A stretch of DNA of 31,855 bases from a virus: the IMG/VR virus record IMGVR_UViG_3300025732_000171, positions 1 to 31,855 of that record; one strand, written 5' to 3'. Below the pieces are notes generated by a model that ran no database searches, was not told the origin of the DNA, and saw nothing but the letters and a program-made list of their open reading frames with translations. The position numbers and the translations under genes were made by a program. Of the stretch, positions 2,394 to 20,737 are shown in pieces (positions within the stretch are counted from its first letter, which is position 1; each line of letters starts with the position of its first letter).

Positions 2394-5300
2394 TTATATA
2401 AGTGTGTCTGGAGTTCCTGGAAGATTAAGTCTTGGATTATTACTACTGATGTCAGTACCCTGACGTAGGATAGCAGAAGGTCTCGTGACAACCTGAGCAG
2501 TAATGCTCTCCTGTAGAGTGTCATATACTTGTACAAGTTCTCCAGGAGTCTCATAGAATCCAGCATAACGAACTCCATCCTTATAGAACACTGCTCCAAA
2601 ATACGCTCTACCATCAACATATCCAGTCTGTTTAAGACCAACTAAGTCTGTAACCTGAATAAGTTTTGCTGGGTCCGCTACAATTGGATCTCTAACAACT
2701 TCAAATTGTGGTCTGAATGAAGCATTAATACCTGTATCAGTAACCATTGTTATATCAGGATAAGTTGTAAATCCAAGACCGGGATCTAAAACATTTACAG
2801 ATTTAATCCTACCAAAACTGTCACAATCATAACTTAAAACTGCCCCATTACTTGGAGTAATTTGTATTTCATCCACTCCACAATTATGATTTATACCAGG
2901 ATTTTCTACAATGACTGATTTTAATCTCAATGTGACTGGATACGATCGACCACCTGATGGGGGAACATTATTTGGAAGAGATGGATTACCATTTCCTGGA
3001 TCATCAACAATAACCTCTTTAATTACACCTTTTCCTCTAATTCTTTTTGGGCAGGGTGGTGGAATAAGAATGGCAGATATACCAACAGGATTTATTGTCC
3101 ATGGTCTTGATAGTCCAGTTGATTGATCAACAGGAACTGTAATGATAGCATTAAAAACTGTAGGATTACTATCAAAAGTAGCTTGATTGGATGTATGTGT
3201 ATTATACAACTCCATTTCAACAGTTCTTTTTCCTTTAGTAACATTAAAATTAAAAGTTCTCACTCCTTCAAATACTCTTGCTACTCCAACTTCTATCCCA
3301 TCAACTCTTACAATCACATAGTCATCAGCTTCTGCTCTTAATGTGTATTGACCGTCAACAGGAAAATCAACATTATTCCAAGTTAATGTCCAAGTTTTAT
3401 CTTGATAATTTGTGCGATAATCTTCAACATTAGAGAAGGAAGGTGTTAAGAAAGGACCTAAAGAACCATTTCTGTAACTAGCAAGAACAGGACCAGAATA
3501 GGATACTCCATCTTTCACAGTTCCACTAGACAATCCACCACTTGTTGTTGTTTTTGTTGACCCTTGCACATTTCCTATATTAGAGATTATTATTTTAATA
3601 TTTTCATCATCGCCATCAGCATCACGAATACCTAATCTATTACTAGAATTTAGAATAGGACCTCTTGCACCAGCAGCAGCACCTATGATTTCAATAGGAC
3701 CATAGGTTTTACCTGCGGTAAACTTACCGGACTTTTTAATAGTTTCCTTTTGGGGAATAGCAGATTCTTGTATGCGTAATATATTTGGATCATTTGTGGT
3801 GCCGGCAGGAAAAGATGGGACCGATCTTTTGAATTTAATCTTATCTCCATCACTAGGCAAGATAACTTCTTTTGCAGCAAGACCAGCAATATAAGGGGCA
3901 TCATCAACCTCCATAACAAATTCAATTTCACCAGACCCATTTCCAGTAACATCCAAATAAAATTGTTTTCCTTTTTGAACAAATTTTGCTTTTATCTTGG
4001 ACGTAGAAGTAGCAGTGGATATTGTGTGTGAAACAACCCAATCAGAAGTATTAAAAACTTTTTGATCTACCTTAGAAAATATTTCTGTTTTTTCATTTTC
4101 AACTTCAACTTCAATAGAATGCATTCCTTTTGTTAAAAATACCTTAGTTGTCTGAGGACTTTCCGTTCCAAATCCATCAAGTTTTCCAGATGATCCTCCT
4201 TTGAAACTCAGTCCACCACCTCTCGCTATTTCCTTTCCATCAATAAGAATTCTACCACCATTATCTACAGTTCCTCTCAAAGCATAGAATCCATCATAAG
4301 GAATATCAAGATTCCAAGAATTCTTATAAACAATACCACCACCATCAGATCCATTTTCTGATATAGGAATAACTGGAGAGATGGCATAGCGATTCATAAA
4401 CTGACTCCAACCAGAAACTTGATATGTTTTTGTTTCCGTGGTCGTCTGTGGTTCTACTCCTGGAGCAGAATCTAACCTAAAAGTTAAATCATAAGTGTTT
4501 CTTTTGCTATTAGGAATAGTTCTTTTATTTGAACTCTTAAAAGTTCCAATAGAGGCAGTAACTTGAATATCATCATTATCATTCTTCGTAGAAGTATAAT
4601 CAGCAAAAATCTTTTTAGATTCTCCAATACCTTTTTCTTTTGCTTTTGTTCCACCTTTAATTAAACCTTGCTCTACAGACGTATATTTTTTAGAATCTTC
4701 CTTAGCATAGACAACATAATTTGTATTTTTTAATATTTTTATTTTTTCCGTTCTAGTTTTTTTATTTTTTTCAGCGCCATTTAGTGTAAAAGTATGACTT
4801 CCAGTTACTGCAGTAAACACAAACGAAAGATCTTTAAATGCACCTTGTCCATAAATCGTAAATTCAACTTCTTGTGTATTAGAGGATGATGTCGTTGTAG
4901 TTTCAGTAGTTTCAGTAACTGTTTTAAGACTAGAAAAATTAACAGGATACCATTTATTAGCAGCACCAGGAAATCTAGTTGACCAAATTGGATTTCTTGG
5001 ACATCTACCTTCTTGCTCTACGATTGGCTCTTGAGGGACTGGTGGGAGGGGAGCATCAATAACAAGAGCAACTCCCATTGGGTTTTCTATCCATGATTTG
5101 GGAGAAATAATTTCTTCTTCGTAGAAAGATGCGGTGTTTGATTCTCCTCCCACTATGAACGTTAGGTCATAAGTGCTTCTTCTACCACCTTTTGCGGTTC
5201 TTTTATTTTTAGATTCAAAATTTCCAGATCCTGCAGTAATTTGTATGTCATCATTATCATTTGCTGATGCTATATAATCTGCAAATATTTTACTTGAAGA

Positions 5301-7160
5301 TCCTATACCCCCTTCTTTATTTTTCTTGCCATTTTGAATAATCCCCTGCTCAATCTCACCTCTTGTAGATATCGCAACGACTTTATACTTTATATTGGGT
5401 TTTACTTTAATCGTTTCATTTCTACTTTGCTTGCTTTTTTCATTCCCCTTTAATGTAAATGAATGCGATCCATCTTCAGAAGTAAAGGCAAACTTTAGCG
5501 TTCCAGTCTTTTTGCCTTGACCAAAAACTTTGAAGTCAACATCAATCAATCCAGCAGGATTTTGTTTTATAACTTTTTCAGTAATTGGAACATTATATAA
5601 ATCAACTTTAATTCTATGGACTCCTTCTTTAACAGTTTTCTTTACTTTACTTGGCGGTTGATCTTTTCTAAATTCTGTTGTTGTAAATAAAAGTTCATTA
5701 TCAAGATATATTTTTGCTATGTTATCTCCCATACCTTTAAAGGTATACTCTCCCGAATATGGGAAATCTTTTTGCCATTCCATAACAAATGGAATACCAG
5801 CAAAATCAGTTCCGGGAACATTTGAAGGGGGAACTGGAGATACAGCATTATTATTCATGAAGCTGTCTTCAAAAACTTCTGGTTTGTATACCGAGTTATC
5901 ATTAAATACATACTTTACATTATAAGTGCTTCTTCCCTTTTGAGCACCAATTCTTGTAGCAGAAAACTTACCAATGCCAGCTTCTGCTTGTAAGTCATCA
6001 TTATCATTTGCGGTATTTAAGAAGTCAGCAAAAATAGATTTTCCAGAAAGTTCTTCTTTTGTTTTGGTATTAACTTCTTTTGGTTTTTTGCCCAATCCTT
6101 CAACAATTCCAATCTCACTACCAGCTCCCTTATACTGTCCCTCCGATGATACAAGATAAACTGTATTTGGTTTTACTTTTATTCTAACTTCCTGTCCAGT
6201 CTGATTATTTTTAAAATCACTTGCTCTAATTTTAAAGGCATGTGATTTGTCTTCTGTAATGAAATTAAAAGCTAGATTATTTCCTCCTTTTTTGGCACCA
6301 CCACCAGAAGTAAAAATCTTAAAGGTTTCCTCTTTAAGCAGACTTCCTTGAGCATACTCTCCACCCCACCCTGGATGTCTAACATCATGCTTAACTCTAG
6401 TGATTCTTGTAGAAGATTTTACTGATATTGGAGATTCAGTTCTAGTTGTCCACCATTTTTTAATCGTATTATCAGATTGATTGATTCTAGAACCACCACG
6501 AAGAGAAGTTAAGAATTTTTGATACTTTTGTATCTCAAGACGAATAGGATCTTTAGATAGATTAGCATAAAGAGTTGGGTCCCACTCACCAATATCTTTT
6601 CCATCCGCAGAATAGATTCTGCCATATCCAGCATCGGTTGGCAAACAAATCTCATAATCTTCAAAGTCATCTTCTTGGTCATAATATTCTACAGTCTCTA
6701 CAACCTCACCAAGAATAGAACGAACAACAACACCTGCTCCAATTCCACAATTATCTTTTACTTCAGTAATTGGAGCATATTGATACCCAAATCCTCCAGA
6801 AACAAGATCTACAGCAAGGAGAGATCCATCTTGACCGATGATGGGATTTGCTTTTGCTCCTACTCCTCCGCCACCATAAAAGTAAACCTTAGAAGGTCCA
6901 CAATCAGATTCTAATTCAATTCCAGGACAATCTTTTGAACTTTTTGGCAAAAGATCATCAGGATTTAATGTATTAATTTCATTTATACTAAGATATTTAA
7001 TTTCGTCTCGTGTTTTAAAAACAAATTGAGTTCCAGGATTTTTTTTAGCATAGTCATTTGCTCGACACACAGAAACTCCATCAACAAAACCTCTAGTAGT
7101 TGATATGTAACCAACCCTAATATCATCTCTTGATGCAGATCCAAATATATTAAATGACAT
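2394..7160 (-). CDS. Giant repeat-containing virion structural protein (PA14-like modules)
   Basis: At 1588 residues this is the largest gene in the window. Three clear copies of one module lie at about residues 278-422, 540-672 and 764-897. Each has a core IFADY or IFADF, then NDNDDIQ, then a TYDLTF-like end; a degenerate copy may lie near 1054-1200. Between them are beta-rich blocks near 455-525, 945-1020 and 1255-1325 with the FP.DG.Y...VD...VDG..G.H/R.VE pattern of PA14-like lectin domains. The ends (about 95-150 and 1375-1480) carry DPG.GF..YP-type repeats common in cyanophage tail proteins. I infer a tail or baseplate adhesin that may bind surface sugars, perhaps with calcium at NDNDD. 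An AATAAATA late motif lies just upstream at 7197-7204. Confidence 0.65.
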   Translation of the reverse strand: MSFNIFGSASRDDIRVGYISTTRGFVDGVSVCRANDYAKKNPGTQFVFKTRDEIKYLSINEINTLNPDDLLPKSSKDCPGIELESDCGPSKVYFYGGGGVGAKANPIIGQDGSLLAVDLVSGGFGYQYAPITEVKDNCGIGAGVVVRSILGEVVETVEYYDQEDDFEDYEICLPTDAGYGRIYSADGKDIGEWDPTLYANLSKDPIRLEIQKYQKFLTSLRGGSRINQSDNTIKKWWTTRTESPISVKSSTRITRVKHDVRHPGWGGEYAQGSLLKEETFKIFTSGGGAKKGGNNLAFNFITEDKSHAFKIRASDFKNNQTGQEVRIKVKPNTVYLVSSEGQYKGAGSEIGIVEGLGKKPKEVNTKTKEELSGKSIFADFLNTANDNDDLQAEAGIGKFSATRIGAQKGRSTYNVKYVFNDNSVYKPEVFEDSFMNNNAVSPVPPSNVPGTDFAGIPFVMEWQKDFPYSGEYTFKGMGDNIAKIYLDNELLFTTTEFRKDQPPSKVKKTVKEGVHRIKVDLYNVPITEKVIKQNPAGLIDVDFKVFGQGKKTGTLKFAFTSEDGSHSFTLKGNEKSKQSRNETIKVKPNIKYKVVAISTRGEIEQGIIQNGKKNKEGGIGSSSKIFADYIASANDNDDIQITAGSGNFESKNKRTAKGGRRSTYDLTFIVGGESNTASFYEEEIISPKSWIENPMGVALVIDAPLPPVPQEPIVEQEGRCPRNPIWSTRFPGAANKWYPVNFSSLKTVTETTETTTTSSSNTQEVEFTIYGQGAFKDLSFVFTAVTGSHTFTLNGAEKNKKTRTEKIKILKNTNYVVYAKEDSKKYTSVEQGLIKGGTKAKEKGIGESKKIFADYTSTKNDNDDIQVTASIGTFKSSNKRTIPNSKRNTYDLTFRLDSAPGVEPQTTTETKTYQVSGWSQFMNRYAISPVIPISENGSDGGGIVYKNSWNLDIPYDGFYALRGTVDNGGRILIDGKEIARGGGLSFKGGSSGKLDGFGTESPQTTKVFLTKGMHSIEVEVENEKTEIFSKVDQKVFNTSDWVVSHTISTATSTSKIKAKFVQKGKQFYLDVTGNGSGEIEFVMEVDDAPYIAGLAAKEVILPSDGDKIKFKRSVPSFPAGTTNDPNILRIQESAIPQKETIKKSGKFTAGKTYGPIEIIGAAAGARGPILNSSNRLGIRDADGDDENIKIIISNIGNVQGSTKTTTSGGLSSGTVKDGVSYSGPVLASYRNGSLGPFLTPSFSNVEDYRTNYQDKTWTLTWNNVDFPVDGQYTLRAEADDYVIVRVDGIEVGVARVFEGVRTFNFNVTKGKRTVEMELYNTHTSNQATFDSNPTVFNAIITVPVDQSTGLSRPWTINPVGISAILIPPPCPKRIRGKGVIKEVIVDDPGNGNPSLPNNVPPSGGRSYPVTLRLKSVIVENPGINHNCGVDEIQITPSNGAVLSYDCDSFGRIKSVNVLDPGLGFTTYPDITMVTDTGINASFRPQFEVVRDPIVADPAKLIQVTDLVGLKQTGYVDGRAYFGAVFYKDGVRYAGFYETPGELVQVYDTLQESITAQVVTRPSAILRQGTDISSNNPRLNLPGTPDTLI

Positions 7161-16591: not shown

Positions 16592-18949
16592 TCAAAAAAT
16601 CCCAAGGAATTTAGAAGTCTTCTTATTTGGTTTTGAAGCTGGGAATTGTGGGACTGATGGTTTTGCGTTAGCTCCTGATGTACCACCTTGCCCTCTACGA
16701 GTAGATGATGGTGCTGCCACCACCTTTGGTGGTGGTTTTGGTGTTGGAGTAATTGGTTTTTGTGATGGTTTATTTGTTCCCAATTTTGCTACTCTTGCTT
16801 TTCTTGCAGATTCTGCTGCAGCATAATCTTTATAATACTTACCATCAGATGATGAATAGTATCTTCCTTGAGAAGCAGCAACTCTTTGTTTTATTCTAGC
16901 TTCGGATGCTTTATCTGCCGCATCAACTCTTTCAATATCTTTATTTGTACCAAACATTCTAACGCCAGTACGCCATGCCTGACCAAAAATACCACCTCTA
17001 CGAGTATCTTCTATTGCTCCACCTCTGATTTTAGCATCGGCAGCAGATTCTCCTGGTTTAGATTTGGTTGTTTCTCTATTGAGTATGGCTGCTTTATTTT
17101 GCTTTGCCTTTAAATCATTTGTGGCTCTAGCATAACCATTAGGACCAAGACGTTCATTCAACATCTTTTTAATATTATCTTCTGTCATGCCACGGCGTCT
17201 CATATCTTCCAAATCGCCAATAGCAGTAGTACGCATTGTTCTTGCGTTAAGAGTTTCCTCCCTACCTTTAGCACCCTTTGGATCAAAGAAGTCAGCAAGA
17301 GACTCCATCATACCTTTATTTCTTTGAGTCGCTCTCTGATATGTTGGTTCTCCACCTTTAAAAGTTAAGTAAGCAACGAATGGACCGTCTGGACCCATCA
17401 TAATTTTTGTCTTTGGAAGATTCTTCTTATCAAAATCTTTTAATCCTGACCCACCAATAAGACCAGATCCTGCTCCACTATATCCTCTGCTTCTGGCACC
17501 ATACTTATCAACTTGACCAGATAAGCCACTAGCAAAATTTGAAGAGTATATTATATCCTTCCCTCTCTTTTGGGCAAAGTATTCCATTCCACCAACATTT
17601 ATTTTTGGAACTGTGATAGCATCATATCCAGTTCCAGCACCTAGTTTTTGTGTGCCACCTTTAACAAGAATAGACTTTCTTCCTTGATATGTTGTCCCAA
17701 ATCCCATACCAGCAGCAGTTTGAATACCAGAACCAGAAGCAAGTCTTCTTTGGACTTTCATCTGTTCTTCTATTCTTTTCAATCTATCTTCAGTTGATAT
17801 CCTCTTTGTATCTGAAAGAACTGGATCTTGATATGCCATATTTCCTTCAGAAGGATCACTTCCAATCAATCCTCCACCAGCAGCATAAACTCTCTGACTA
17901 ACAACACGAGGGCGATTAGTTCCACCACCAGCGGCGTTCATTGCCTCCAACGCACCCACACCAAACTTCTGAACGGCTCCACGAGACATTACAAACTCAC
18001 CATCGGTAAGCATTGCTGGAACTCTATCAATTCCTTTGGGTCCAGATACTACACCATTCACTCCTGCCATCAAACTAGCAAGACCACCAGATCCAAAGAA
18101 AGATGTAAATGGACTTACTTGAGAAGATATTGCTCCACCGTTAGCAGCAAATATAGTTTTTAAATCAGCAAATCCACCACCAAAAGCACCCATTGAAGGG
18201 ACTGCTGGTGCCTCTGGAACATCAAGTTGTGGTGCTTGTTCATCACCACCCATAAACTTATTGATTGCCATCCCAGCTCCAACTGTGGCAACGGCACCCA
18301 AACCAAGTTTAACTAAACCAAGCTTTCCACCACCTCCACCAGATCCAAGTGCTTGACCAATACCTTTGAGACCTTTCCCTGTAGCAATTGCTTTTGCTAG
18401 TCTGGCAGCAATAACAACAAGTCTTGCTGTTCCTGCTATTGCTACTTTAGCAAGACTTCTTACAACTCTACCAAAACCCGTTCCAAATAAAATGTATCCA
18501 GCAATTAAAGAAGGCCACCAGTCTTTTAAGAATCTGGCAATTGAACGAACCTTACTTTGATTCTCCGGATTCGCAAACCAATTAATTAAGTTTAGTAATG
18601 CCTTTCCTAAAAATAAAGTAACAAAGAACTGAATAATCTGATCTAATATACTTTTTACAGGAGCAATCACTTCTTGAGCAGTATTTTTAACCGCATTAAA
18701 TGCCCCTTCTAATCCTAATTCTATCTTCTTTCTTCTAGCAACTTCTTGATTCTTTTTTTCCTGATTAACTTCTTTTGTGACCTGAGTATTCTGTTGAGTA
18801 AGAAGTTGTATAATTCTCGTTAAAGACTTTGATATATCTTGAAGAGCAGCAGTATCGGCAGGGGCAGCAACCAGCTGTTGTTGTGGAGCGACAGCAGCAG
18901 ATTGAACTGTGGTTCTTCTGGGCAAAAATTTCTGTTGATTGACTGCCAT
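16592..18949 (-). CDS. Large tail protein, candidate tape measure
   Basis: This is a 785-residue protein. Residues 30-100 are Gln/Lys-rich and probably coiled coil. Hydrophobic segments follow at about 105-125 (IIQFFVTLFLGKALLNLINW) and 144-185, then a Gly-rich hinge. A motif at 313-330 (LTDGEFVMSRGAVQKFG) matches the GEYVID motif of the next two genes. The C-terminal third is basic with Pro/Thr-rich repeats (PTPKPPPK). It is the first gene after gp26 and its frameshift partner, the place where tape measure genes sit behind tail chaperones in many phages. Hydrophobic segments that could enter the membrane also fit a tape measure. No catalytic domain is seen. The role as ruler is inference; the two following related proteins are alternatives. 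Confidence 0.5.
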   Translation of the reverse strand: MAVNQQKFLPRRTTVQSAAVAPQQQLVAAPADTAALQDISKSLTRIIQLLTQQNTQVTKEVNQEKKNQEVARRKKIELGLEGAFNAVKNTAQEVIAPVKSILDQIIQFFVTLFLGKALLNLINWFANPENQSKVRSIARFLKDWWPSLIAGYILFGTGFGRVVRSLAKVAIAGTARLVVIAARLAKAIATGKGLKGIGQALGSGGGGGKLGLVKLGLGAVATVGAGMAINKFMGGDEQAPQLDVPEAPAVPSMGAFGGGFADLKTIFAANGGAISSQVSPFTSFFGSGGLASLMAGVNGVVSGPKGIDRVPAMLTDGEFVMSRGAVQKFGVGALEAMNAAGGGTNRPRVVSQRVYAAGGGLIGSDPSEGNMAYQDPVLSDTKRISTEDRLKRIEEQMKVQRRLASGSGIQTAAGMGFGTTYQGRKSILVKGGTQKLGAGTGYDAITVPKINVGGMEYFAQKRGKDIIYSSNFASGLSGQVDKYGARSRGYSGAGSGLIGGSGLKDFDKKNLPKTKIMMGPDGPFVAYLTFKGGEPTYQRATQRNKGMMESLADFFDPKGAKGREETLNARTMRTTAIGDLEDMRRRGMTEDNIKKMLNERLGPNGYARATNDLKAKQNKAAILNRETTKSKPGESAADAKIRGGAIEDTRRGGIFGQAWRTGVRMFGTNKDIERVDAADKASEARIKQRVAASQGRYYSSSDGKYYKDYAAAESARKARVAKLGTNKPSQKPITPTPKPPPKVVAAPSSTRRGQGGTSGANAKPSVPQFPASKPNKKTSKFLGIF

Positions 18950-18961
18950 TCTACCAAACTA

Positions 18962-19144
18962 TTAGAAACTTGACTTTTGTTGCTGCTGTTTCAATTGCTC
19001 CTCTTCAAGATGTTGTTGTAATAACCCAACATACACATCCCTTTCCCAAGGTATCATATTTTCAATTTCCCATAATGAATATTTATGGTACTGTATCAAG
19101 GCAAAGTTGAGTCTGAAATAATTTTCAAGGTCCATATGGACCAT
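18962..19144 (-). CDS. Short ORF, likely expressed as a -1 frameshift extension of gp26
   Basis: The ORF has 60 residues, rich in aromatic residues then Gln/Glu: NYFRLNFALIQYHKYSLWEI, IPWERDVY, and a Gln-rich tail. The ATG at 19144 has no ribosome binding site (upstream GCGTAGCA) and follows the gp26 stop by two bases. It is in the -1 frame of gp26, open back to a TGA at 19174-19172, and a slippery T-TTT-TTC lies in that short window. The product would be the C-terminal part of a fusion of about 301 residues, like the T part of phage G/GT tail assembly chaperones that bind the tape measure protein. Free translation by reinitiation at the ATG is the alternative. Confidence 0.7.
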   Translation of the reverse strand: MVHMDLENYFRLNFALIQYHKYSLWEIENMIPWERDVYVGLLQQHLEEEQLKQQQQKSSF

Positions 19145-19159
19145 TGCTACGCGAAAAAA
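19129..19159 (-). promoter_or_regulatory. Programmed -1 ribosomal frameshift signal
   Basis: On the minus strand the heptamer T TTT TTC (19159-19153) is in the correct phase for -1 slippage: the gp26 codons are TCT TTT TTC. After a 10-base spacer a perfect inverted repeat GGTCC-ATAT-GGACC (19142-19129) can form a hairpin. Slippage would add CGC GTA GCA and enter the 60-residue ORF without meeting a stop. The gp26 stop TAG (19149-19147) lies in the spacer. Confidence 0.7.
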
Positions 19160-19866
19160 GATGCTAAGCCCTCAAGAACAACTTCACTTTCTACTTTAGT
19201 TTTTGGATTGGTAACCGCAATCTTATGAGAAAGTTTAGGCATTGACTCAAAGAACTTCTCAATATCTTTAAACTGAGAAGAATTCATAGACTCCAAGAAC
19301 TCGGTAAGTTCCTTTTTAGTTACATCTGCAGCAGACCATACTTCATCTTCAGTATAAATTTTATCAATACAAGATGAAATCAAATCAAAAGATTGTTCCA
19401 TCGCATTTTCATTATTAAAGTCAAAGTTATTTTTAATAAACTGCTCAAGTGATGGATACTTCATTTCCATCATAATATTACCATCAACTTTAATTTTGTT
19501 TGTATGCTCTTCATTCTTTTGAACTTGTATATCATCCAGATTAATACTAACGGTCACATTAGTTTCACCATCATCTGGACAAATGATATTAACTTCAACC
19601 TCTTCACCAACAGACTTTCCTCTAATATTCAAAAACAAATATTCAATATCAAAAGTTGGTAAAGTTTCTACTTTAATATCTTTTGTAGAAATACAGTTTT
19701 TAATTACTGCTTTAATAGCATTAGTAATTTGCTTTGTATCTTCGCTCTCTAAAGCAATTACTAATAACTTTTCTTCTTTAACTAGAAATGGTCTGTATCT
19801 AATTGTCTGTCCTGATGATGGCAACTCAAGTTCATAAGTTGGCGTAGAAATCTTTGGTAATGGCAT
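19147..19866 (-). CDS. 26: Baseplate hub assembly protein gp26 (tail chaperone candidate)
   Basis: This 239-residue protein matches the T4 gp26-type baseplate family (PF12322 as I recall it). It starts with an ELPSSGQTIRYRPFLVKEEK motif, followed by ALES and VIKNCI, and has a Cys-containing centre (NIICPDDGETNVTVSINL). The C-terminal half is helical. In T4 this gene is required for hub assembly and is not a major virion part. Here it ends in a slippery site leading into a 60-residue ORF, an arrangement seen in tail assembly chaperones. ATAGG lies 6-7 bases before the ATG, and an AATAAATA late motif lies at 19895-19902. Confidence 0.75.
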   Translation of the reverse strand: MPLPKISTPTYELELPSSGQTIRYRPFLVKEEKLLVIALESEDTKQITNAIKAVIKNCISTKDIKVETLPTFDIEYLFLNIRGKSVGEEVEVNIICPDDGETNVTVSINLDDIQVQKNEEHTNKIKVDGNIMMEMKYPSLEQFIKNNFDFNNENAMEQSFDLISSCIDKIYTEDEVWSAADVTKKELTEFLESMNSSQFKDIEKFFESMPKLSHKIAVTNPKTKVESEVVLEGLASFFA

Positions 19867-19894: not shown

Positions 19895-19902
19895 TATTTA
19901 TT
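19895..19902 (-). promoter_or_regulatory. T4-type late promoter motif AATAAATA
   Basis: The minus-strand octamer overlaps the stop codon of the gp54-like gene and lies 29 bases before gp26. It could drive the hub gene block to its left. Confidence 0.45.
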
Positions 19903-20737
19903 AAGCAATATTTGAGTTCGCTCCAACAGTAAACCCAGAAACAGTATTTCCAGAAGCATTTGCTGATGAAGTGGGAATACCACCAATATTGAGTCCAGTT
20001 CCAGAAGTTGCCAACGCACCAGTTCCAGAAAGGTTCGTGGCTACCTGATTTAAAGCTGCTTGTTGTGTTGGATTGGTTTGTGTAGGTTCTGCTGTTGGAG
20101 ATCCTGGTGCTACATAATATCTGATGTACGAAAATGACACTGTACATTTTAATAAAGAAGAACTATCATAGGACACTGCCATAGATTGTAAAGCTATTGG
20201 AAAAGCATTTACAAAATTGTAAACTAAGCTGGATGCTGGGGTTCCTTTAGCACCACCAAGACTACTTCTCTCAAATTTAGTTACAGTTAATCCTTGGTTA
20301 CAAATATAGAGATTTGGATAATTCATTCTATAAAAATATCTTTCTTCAGCAACACCTGGTCTTCCAGATTCAGCAGCAGCGATTTGTTCTCCAGAAATAT
20401 ACTTCATCCAAGTTTCAAAGTATCTGATAGGTAAATAATTTTCAGCATCAACATAAAAACTTAAATCAATTCTATCATCATACAATCTTCTGTAAGCATG
20501 GCGATGAATAGTTCCATGGTAATCCCCAGAAATATCATGAGTAGCAAAAGTAGATCCAGGAAGTATAGCGTCAGAGCAAAGAAGATTTAATTTATCTTGA
20601 TTTAATTTTACTCCATTTTCAATAAGATATCTTGTAGAAAGACCAGATGGCCTTGGAATTTCTACTTCAAAATGAGATGTTGTTGCTGGATTTAAAAGTG
20701 CTGATTTGATATCAGCAATGCTCTTTGAGGAGGGCAT
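19901..20737 (-). CDS. 54: Baseplate tail tube initiator (gp54-like)
   Basis: This 278-residue protein has a tube-protein pattern near the N-terminus: HFEVEIPRPSG, then LNLLCSDAILPGSTF, and later RIDLSFYVDAE followed by FETWMKYI. These resemble the T4 gp19/gp54 tube family, in which gp54 primes tail tube polymerisation on the baseplate. It ends in an Ala/Ser/Thr/Gly-rich tail of about 80 residues. gp48, its partner tube cap, lies on the other strand at 21623. No ribosome binding site precedes the ATG, which lies next to the divergent late promoter of gp4. It could instead be another tube-like baseplate protein. Confidence 0.58.
   Translation of the reverse strand: MPSSKSIADIKSALLNPATTSHFEVEIPRPSGLSTRYLIENGVKLNQDKLNLLCSDAILPGSTFATHDISGDYHGTIHRHAYRRLYDDRIDLSFYVDAENYLPIRYFETWMKYISGEQIAAAESGRPGVAEERYFYRMNYPNLYICNQGLTVTKFERSSLGGAKGTPASSLVYNFVNAFPIALQSMAVSYDSSSLLKCTVSFSYIRYYVAPGSPTAEPTQTNPTQQAALNQVATNLSGTGALATSGTGLNIGGIPTSSANASGNTVSGFTVGANSNIA

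Follow-up and report, generated by a model that had tools for sequence, protein, structure and literature searches.

The window, a virus record of 31,855 bases from a marine T4-like cyanophage, carries T4-like tail and baseplate genes. On its minus strand a tail tube gene (19901..20737, 278 aa; phrog_45 tail tube, E 1.9e-32; PF23849 Phage_TTP_2, E 1.2e-13) precedes gp26 (19147..19866, 239 aa, 0 frame). The gene that follows (16592..18949, minus strand) encodes a 785-aa candidate tape measure protein, so called from its position and because it weakly resembles a family of tape measure proteins (phrog_23013, E 0.011). Between these two genes lies an ORF of 60 codons (18962..19144, minus strand), named 'gp51' in the annotation of relatives. 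Both parts of the locus belong to the T4-like gp26/gp51 family: gp26 matches PF12322 (E 3.3e-78) and phrog_150 (E 2.5e-82), and the domain encoded in the -1 frame downstream of it, here called the T domain, matches phrog_634, 'baseplate hub assembly catalyst' (E 3.2e-27). Elsewhere in the window, positions 2394-7160 encode a 1588-residue tail-module protein with a PA14 domain (PF07691, E 1.3e-9), perhaps a carbohydrate-binding fibre or adhesin.

The 3' end of gp26 reads TCT TTT TTC GCG TAG and contains a slippery heptamer, T TTT TTC, at 19153..19159 in the X_XXY_YYZ phase. A 10-nt spacer, GCGTAGCAAT (19143..19152), includes the gp26 stop TAG (19149-19147) and leads into a perfect GGTCC-ATAT-GGACC hairpin (19129..19142; GGTCCATATGGACC), which is present as a single copy on the minus strand of the window and is a likely frameshift stimulator. 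A TGA at 19174-19172 closes the -1 frame upstream, so that it is open from 19171 onward only and runs to a TAA at 18964-18962. After a slip, the CGC at 19153-19151 would be the first of 63 codons encoding the T domain (18962..19153, minus strand), the C-terminal part of a predicted fusion. The short ORF has its own ATG at 19144, 2 nt past the gp26 stop, with no Shine-Dalgarno motif before it (...CTTTTTTCGCGTAGCA ATG). The original prediction, that gp26 and the 60-residue ORF are joined by programmed -1 frameshifting, had described the heptamer, spacer, hairpin, open frame and absent ribosome binding site as we find them, with every coordinate correct; its estimate of about 301 residues for the fusion agrees with the virtual slip product, which is exactly 301 aa.

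We gathered relatives from IMG/VR using five protein queries and added named phages. All 129 distinct junctions in the first set carried an in-phase TTTTTTC, and the offset at which the short ORF follows it in the -1 frame was constant. Of 273 distinct homologous junctions in the wider set, 270 retained both T TTT TTN in phase and the -1 relation between the frames; the three without the heptamer are T4, K493 and Kuja. The same arrangement is found in the cyanophages S-PM2, P-HM2, ACG-2014e, S-PRM1, S-B68 and S-SM2, as well as in Moby (Stenotrophomonas), Aeromonas 65 and Aeh1, and Vibrio CZ01 and VH7D. Sinorhizobium phage phiM7 (L165, 2490-2520) has an in-phase T TTT TTT in place of T TTT TTC, with the stop codon 13 bases on. 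In Vibrio phage K493 (L169, 2430-2620) and Kuja (L170, Ackermannviridae, 2530-2740), the -1 frame is open after gp26 and possibly encodes a T-like domain, judging from weak profile matches; the canonical heptamer is absent (CTTTTC and CTTTTTC, respectively), and a single-codon slip in the P site or another mechanism is possible.

Codon counts over 136 representatives, less than 85% identical to each other, resolved this conservation further. The P-site codon was TTT in 136/136, and the A-site codon was TTC in 116, TTA in 14 and TTT in 6, compared with a 29% share for TTC among Phe codons within gp26. The codon holding the first T of the heptamer was AGT in 61 representatives, TCT in 35, AAT in 18 and GAT in 15, the rest having GCT, GGT, CAT or ACT; across these eight codons, and whatever the amino acid, it ended in T in all 136. 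The naive product of codon frequencies for the slip site is about 10^-49, a figure that overstates the case because the junction sequences are related.

We then examined RNA structure 3' of the slip site. In the window, the folding energy of the 43 nt past the heptamer is -10.4 kcal/mol, with z -2.06 relative to dinucleotide shuffles. Comparison of 30-nt windows of the -1 frame with synonymous-codon shuffles in 136 sequences showed the RNA to be more stable than its controls immediately past the slip site, with mean Z of -1.04, -1.33, -1.44 and -1.14 at codon offsets 0 to 3 (n=136). The excess faded past codon 8 and was gone by codon 12, with values near zero over most of the remaining ORF and a mild -0.5 at offset 32. 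Across all 51 diverse junctions of the nearest clade, 82% of cells in the window's stem were paired, falling to 51% or less when the register was slid. Compensatory changes occurred at 5/5 stem pairs, and doubly changed cells numbered 26 against 10.4 in shuffles, with 0/500 shuffles as high; testing each pair against independence gave weak excesses, bar one pair, and the count with its controls was clearer. RNAalifold called no consensus hairpin over the 51 sequences, so the claim of a hairpin rests on the synonymous-shuffle test and the pair counts for the named stem. Some relatives among the 136 representatives were predicted to have a weak hairpin or none. Of the elements whose conservation the original prediction had put at issue, the heptamer, the -1 phase and the ORF held across the wider set, whereas the exact GGTCC-ATAT-GGACC hairpin is typical of the nearest clade only, other clades having different or weaker ones. 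A second clade (L223, L230, L232, L242) replaces the CATATG-centred hairpin with a 7-bp hairpin straight after the gp26 stop, at a 6-nt spacer; in L223 it reads GGCTCTC-ACAT-GAGAGCC, immediately past the stop codon.

Further evidence came from T4, in which the two parts occur in one protein. The window's T domain is homologous to the C-terminus of T4 gp51, in which residues 3-248 match phrog_150 and residues 147-246 match phrog_634; the phrog_150 match of T4 gp26 reaches profile position 235 only. Across the join, a virtual-fusion profile scored 44 bits against T4 gp51, compared with 19.1 when the gp26 part was used by itself and 21.5 when the T part was; the fused profile also matched gp51 of four more T-even phages. 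By these matches, T4 gp51 carries naturally, in one frame, what a slip in the window is predicted to yield as a 301-residue fusion. When the gp26-like part was placed in a tree, gp26 and gp51 of T-even phages formed two well supported branches, split 96/90 from all other phages. This pattern is the one expected from a duplication in the T4 lineage, with the reservation of long branches and an unplaced root. We looked in the 31.9-kb window record, which may be a fragment, for a second full-length gene with a T domain, as in the two-gene solution of T4, and found none there, with one PF12322 match and one T match in all. Across 534 phage records, the T domain occupied one place per record.

Three other explanations were weighed. 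Under the one that public records imply, gp51 is a gene in its own right, occupying the short ORF and either started from its own ATG or coupled to the gp26 stop, and the slippery run is incidental. The ATG beside the gp26 stop in the window fits this reading, as does an ATG before the conserved core (around NFAL/NFSL) in 90 of the 136 representatives, preceded in 18 of these by an SD-like motif. Yet 36 of the 136 have no ATG, GTG or TTG at all between the heptamer and the core, although their -1 frame is open from the heptamer, as it is for 58-75 codons among the representatives. Another 10 have only GTG or TTG, an SD-like motif was found in 0 of these 46 representatives without ATG, and the named phages ACG-2014e and Aeh1 have no usable start. 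These missing starts, the near-invariance of the heptamer at the codon level and the fusion of both parts in T4 gp51 led us to reject a separate gene, which we regard as very unlikely; the 60-codon ORF is better read as a fragment of the fusion. We also think it unlikely, though less so, that clades with an ATG, the window included, make a free T domain as well, by re-initiation past the gp26 stop; the hairpin would then both stimulate slippage and tune a third product.

Slippage could instead take place during transcription, since an extra U inserted in the mRNA at the six-T run would also yield the -1 frame. RNA polymerase slippage normally needs longer runs, however, and the run comprises six or seven T in the junctions; the strong preference for TTC in the A site counts against this mechanism too, and the selected structure just downstream fits a ribosomal stimulator. 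We consider transcriptional slippage extremely improbable. A chance origin would make the heptamer the T-rich end of an AT-rich gene that happens to lie beside a small ORF. The genome is indeed AT-rich and Phe-Phe is conserved in the protein, but an in-phase T_TTT_TTN occurs at 2 of 8538 codon positions in the window's main genes and at 17 of 31622 positions elsewhere within gp26, and the codon before the run always has T as its third base, over eight different codons. The retention of the motif across the junctions refutes chance, to which we assign a negligible probability.

An AlphaFold2 model of the window's gp26, computed with 80 relatives (pLDDT 89.9), had as its best three matches among solved structures 3fgx (rbstp2171; Z 8.1, 86 residues, rmsd 4.0), 2ob9 (Z 7.9) and 3klu (Z 7.4), covering residues 1-96; the tool cautions that matches with Z values of this size can be commonplace. 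All three have been identified as TAC (tail assembly chaperone) proteins (PMC9603447), and the fourth-best match, at Z 4.9, scored well below them. The model is suggestive of a TAC-type fold in the N-terminal part of gp26, and we take the match as good evidence rather than proof because a Z near 8 can come from a common arrangement. Although HK97 gp13 (2ob9), YqbN (3klu) and rbstp2171 (3fgx) resemble gp26 in fold, they share 5-10% identity with it, and gp26 is about 140 residues longer. Foldseek alone gave no match to the gp26 model at E <= 0.001 and ranked 2ob9 second (probability 0.87). A model of T4-type gp51 gave no chaperone match among solved structures and was uninformative, and sequence searches against solved structures gave nothing useful. 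A weak match of model residues 6-90 to 5ir0 (Z 4.9), ORF19 of a Vibrio cholerae PICI-like element, hints that this satellite protein may be chaperone-like.

Taken together, the conserved heptamer, the missing starts, the RNA structure, the gp51 fusion and the chaperone fold strongly support -1 frameshifting at the gp26 junction. Its fold, position and homology make it very probable that gp26 acts as a tail assembly chaperone, as the original prediction had proposed. We are highly confident in the resulting picture, in which gp26 is the short chaperone form, TAC-N, and a minority of ribosomes, helped by the hairpin, slip at T TTT TTC and add the T domain to give the 301-residue TAC-NC; slippage itself, its lower frequency and the chaperone role are inferences. 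Most ribosomes would halt at TAG and release gp26. The others would slip back one base at the heptamer, 10 nt before the stop and with the hairpin 10 nt downstream, so that TTT-TTC is re-paired as TTT-TTT and CGC GTA GCA ATG and onward is read through the 63 codons of the -1 frame. The predicted junction peptide is ..GLASFFRVAMVHMDLENYFR...

This arrangement resembles gpG/gpGT of lambda, in which a short chaperone and a minor -1 fusion with a C-terminal T domain are encoded beside a tail tube gene and a tape measure gene (in the window, a candidate one). The lambda heptamer is a different one, GGGAAAG, and gp26 is larger, with about 140 residues beyond its chaperone-like first 96; we claim no sequence similarity between the two. 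In the lambda proteins, G serves to coat the tape measure protein and T to recruit subunits of the tail tube (PMC5009743). By analogy, the phage of the window would use a large number of short chaperones and a small number of long ones to cover its tape measure protein and draw in tail tube subunits. Vandenendeviridae and Andersonviridae (phage Adele, PMC12846349) likewise have TAC-N genes with a poly-T -1 slip site at their 3' end and a short ORF usually annotated as hypothetical, but they are other phage families and their motif is GTTTTT instead of T TTT TTN.

T4 gp26 and gp51 have been listed as hub assembly chaperones, gp51 being required and absent from the particle (PMC3004832), and long-tailed phages 'except T4' have been described as conserving frameshifted G/GT chaperones (Atkins et al. 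2016, PMC5009743). The original prediction implied that frameshifting had gone unreported for T4-type gp26. This does not hold: according to PMC10885494 and PMC12846349, the chaperone genes of T4-like phages were identified by Vladimirov, Gautam and Davidson (Virology 2022, 566:9-15). The citing papers state that T4-like phages are known to have poly-T -1 slip signals in their TAC-N genes (PMC12846349, citing the 2022 work), and that some T4-like phages pair a short gene with a longer one for the fusion, with no frameshifting (PMC10885494). Frameshifting in a T4-like TAC-N is thus not new, since the 2022 paper, as the citing papers present it, covers these genes. Its gp26 (TAC-N) and gp51 (TAC-NC) very probably belong to the same gene family as those of the window and, as far as the citing papers describe them, possibly do not differ in kind. 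What we add is codon-level and RNA-level evidence over cyanophages and their kin, together with the absent start codons; some of this may overlap with the 2022 paper.

These results also explain the 'gp51' annotation of cyanophages. Public records present the short ORF as a separate 'gp51' or a hypothetical protein, as a 'gp51' of about 30 codons in P-HM2 (L162), or leave it unannotated, as in ACG-2014e (L163), S-PRM1 (L172) and Aeh1 (L345). The name covers just the C-terminal fragment of the fusion, which annotation often omits, and a joined CDS should replace it. If a free T domain is made where the ATG is kept, the clades without ATG would have given this third product up. Most of the T4 relatives examined, abundant marine cyanophages included, have the frameshift site, and the T4 group has two genes, in agreement with the citing papers' account of how the 2022 work resolved the T4 exception.
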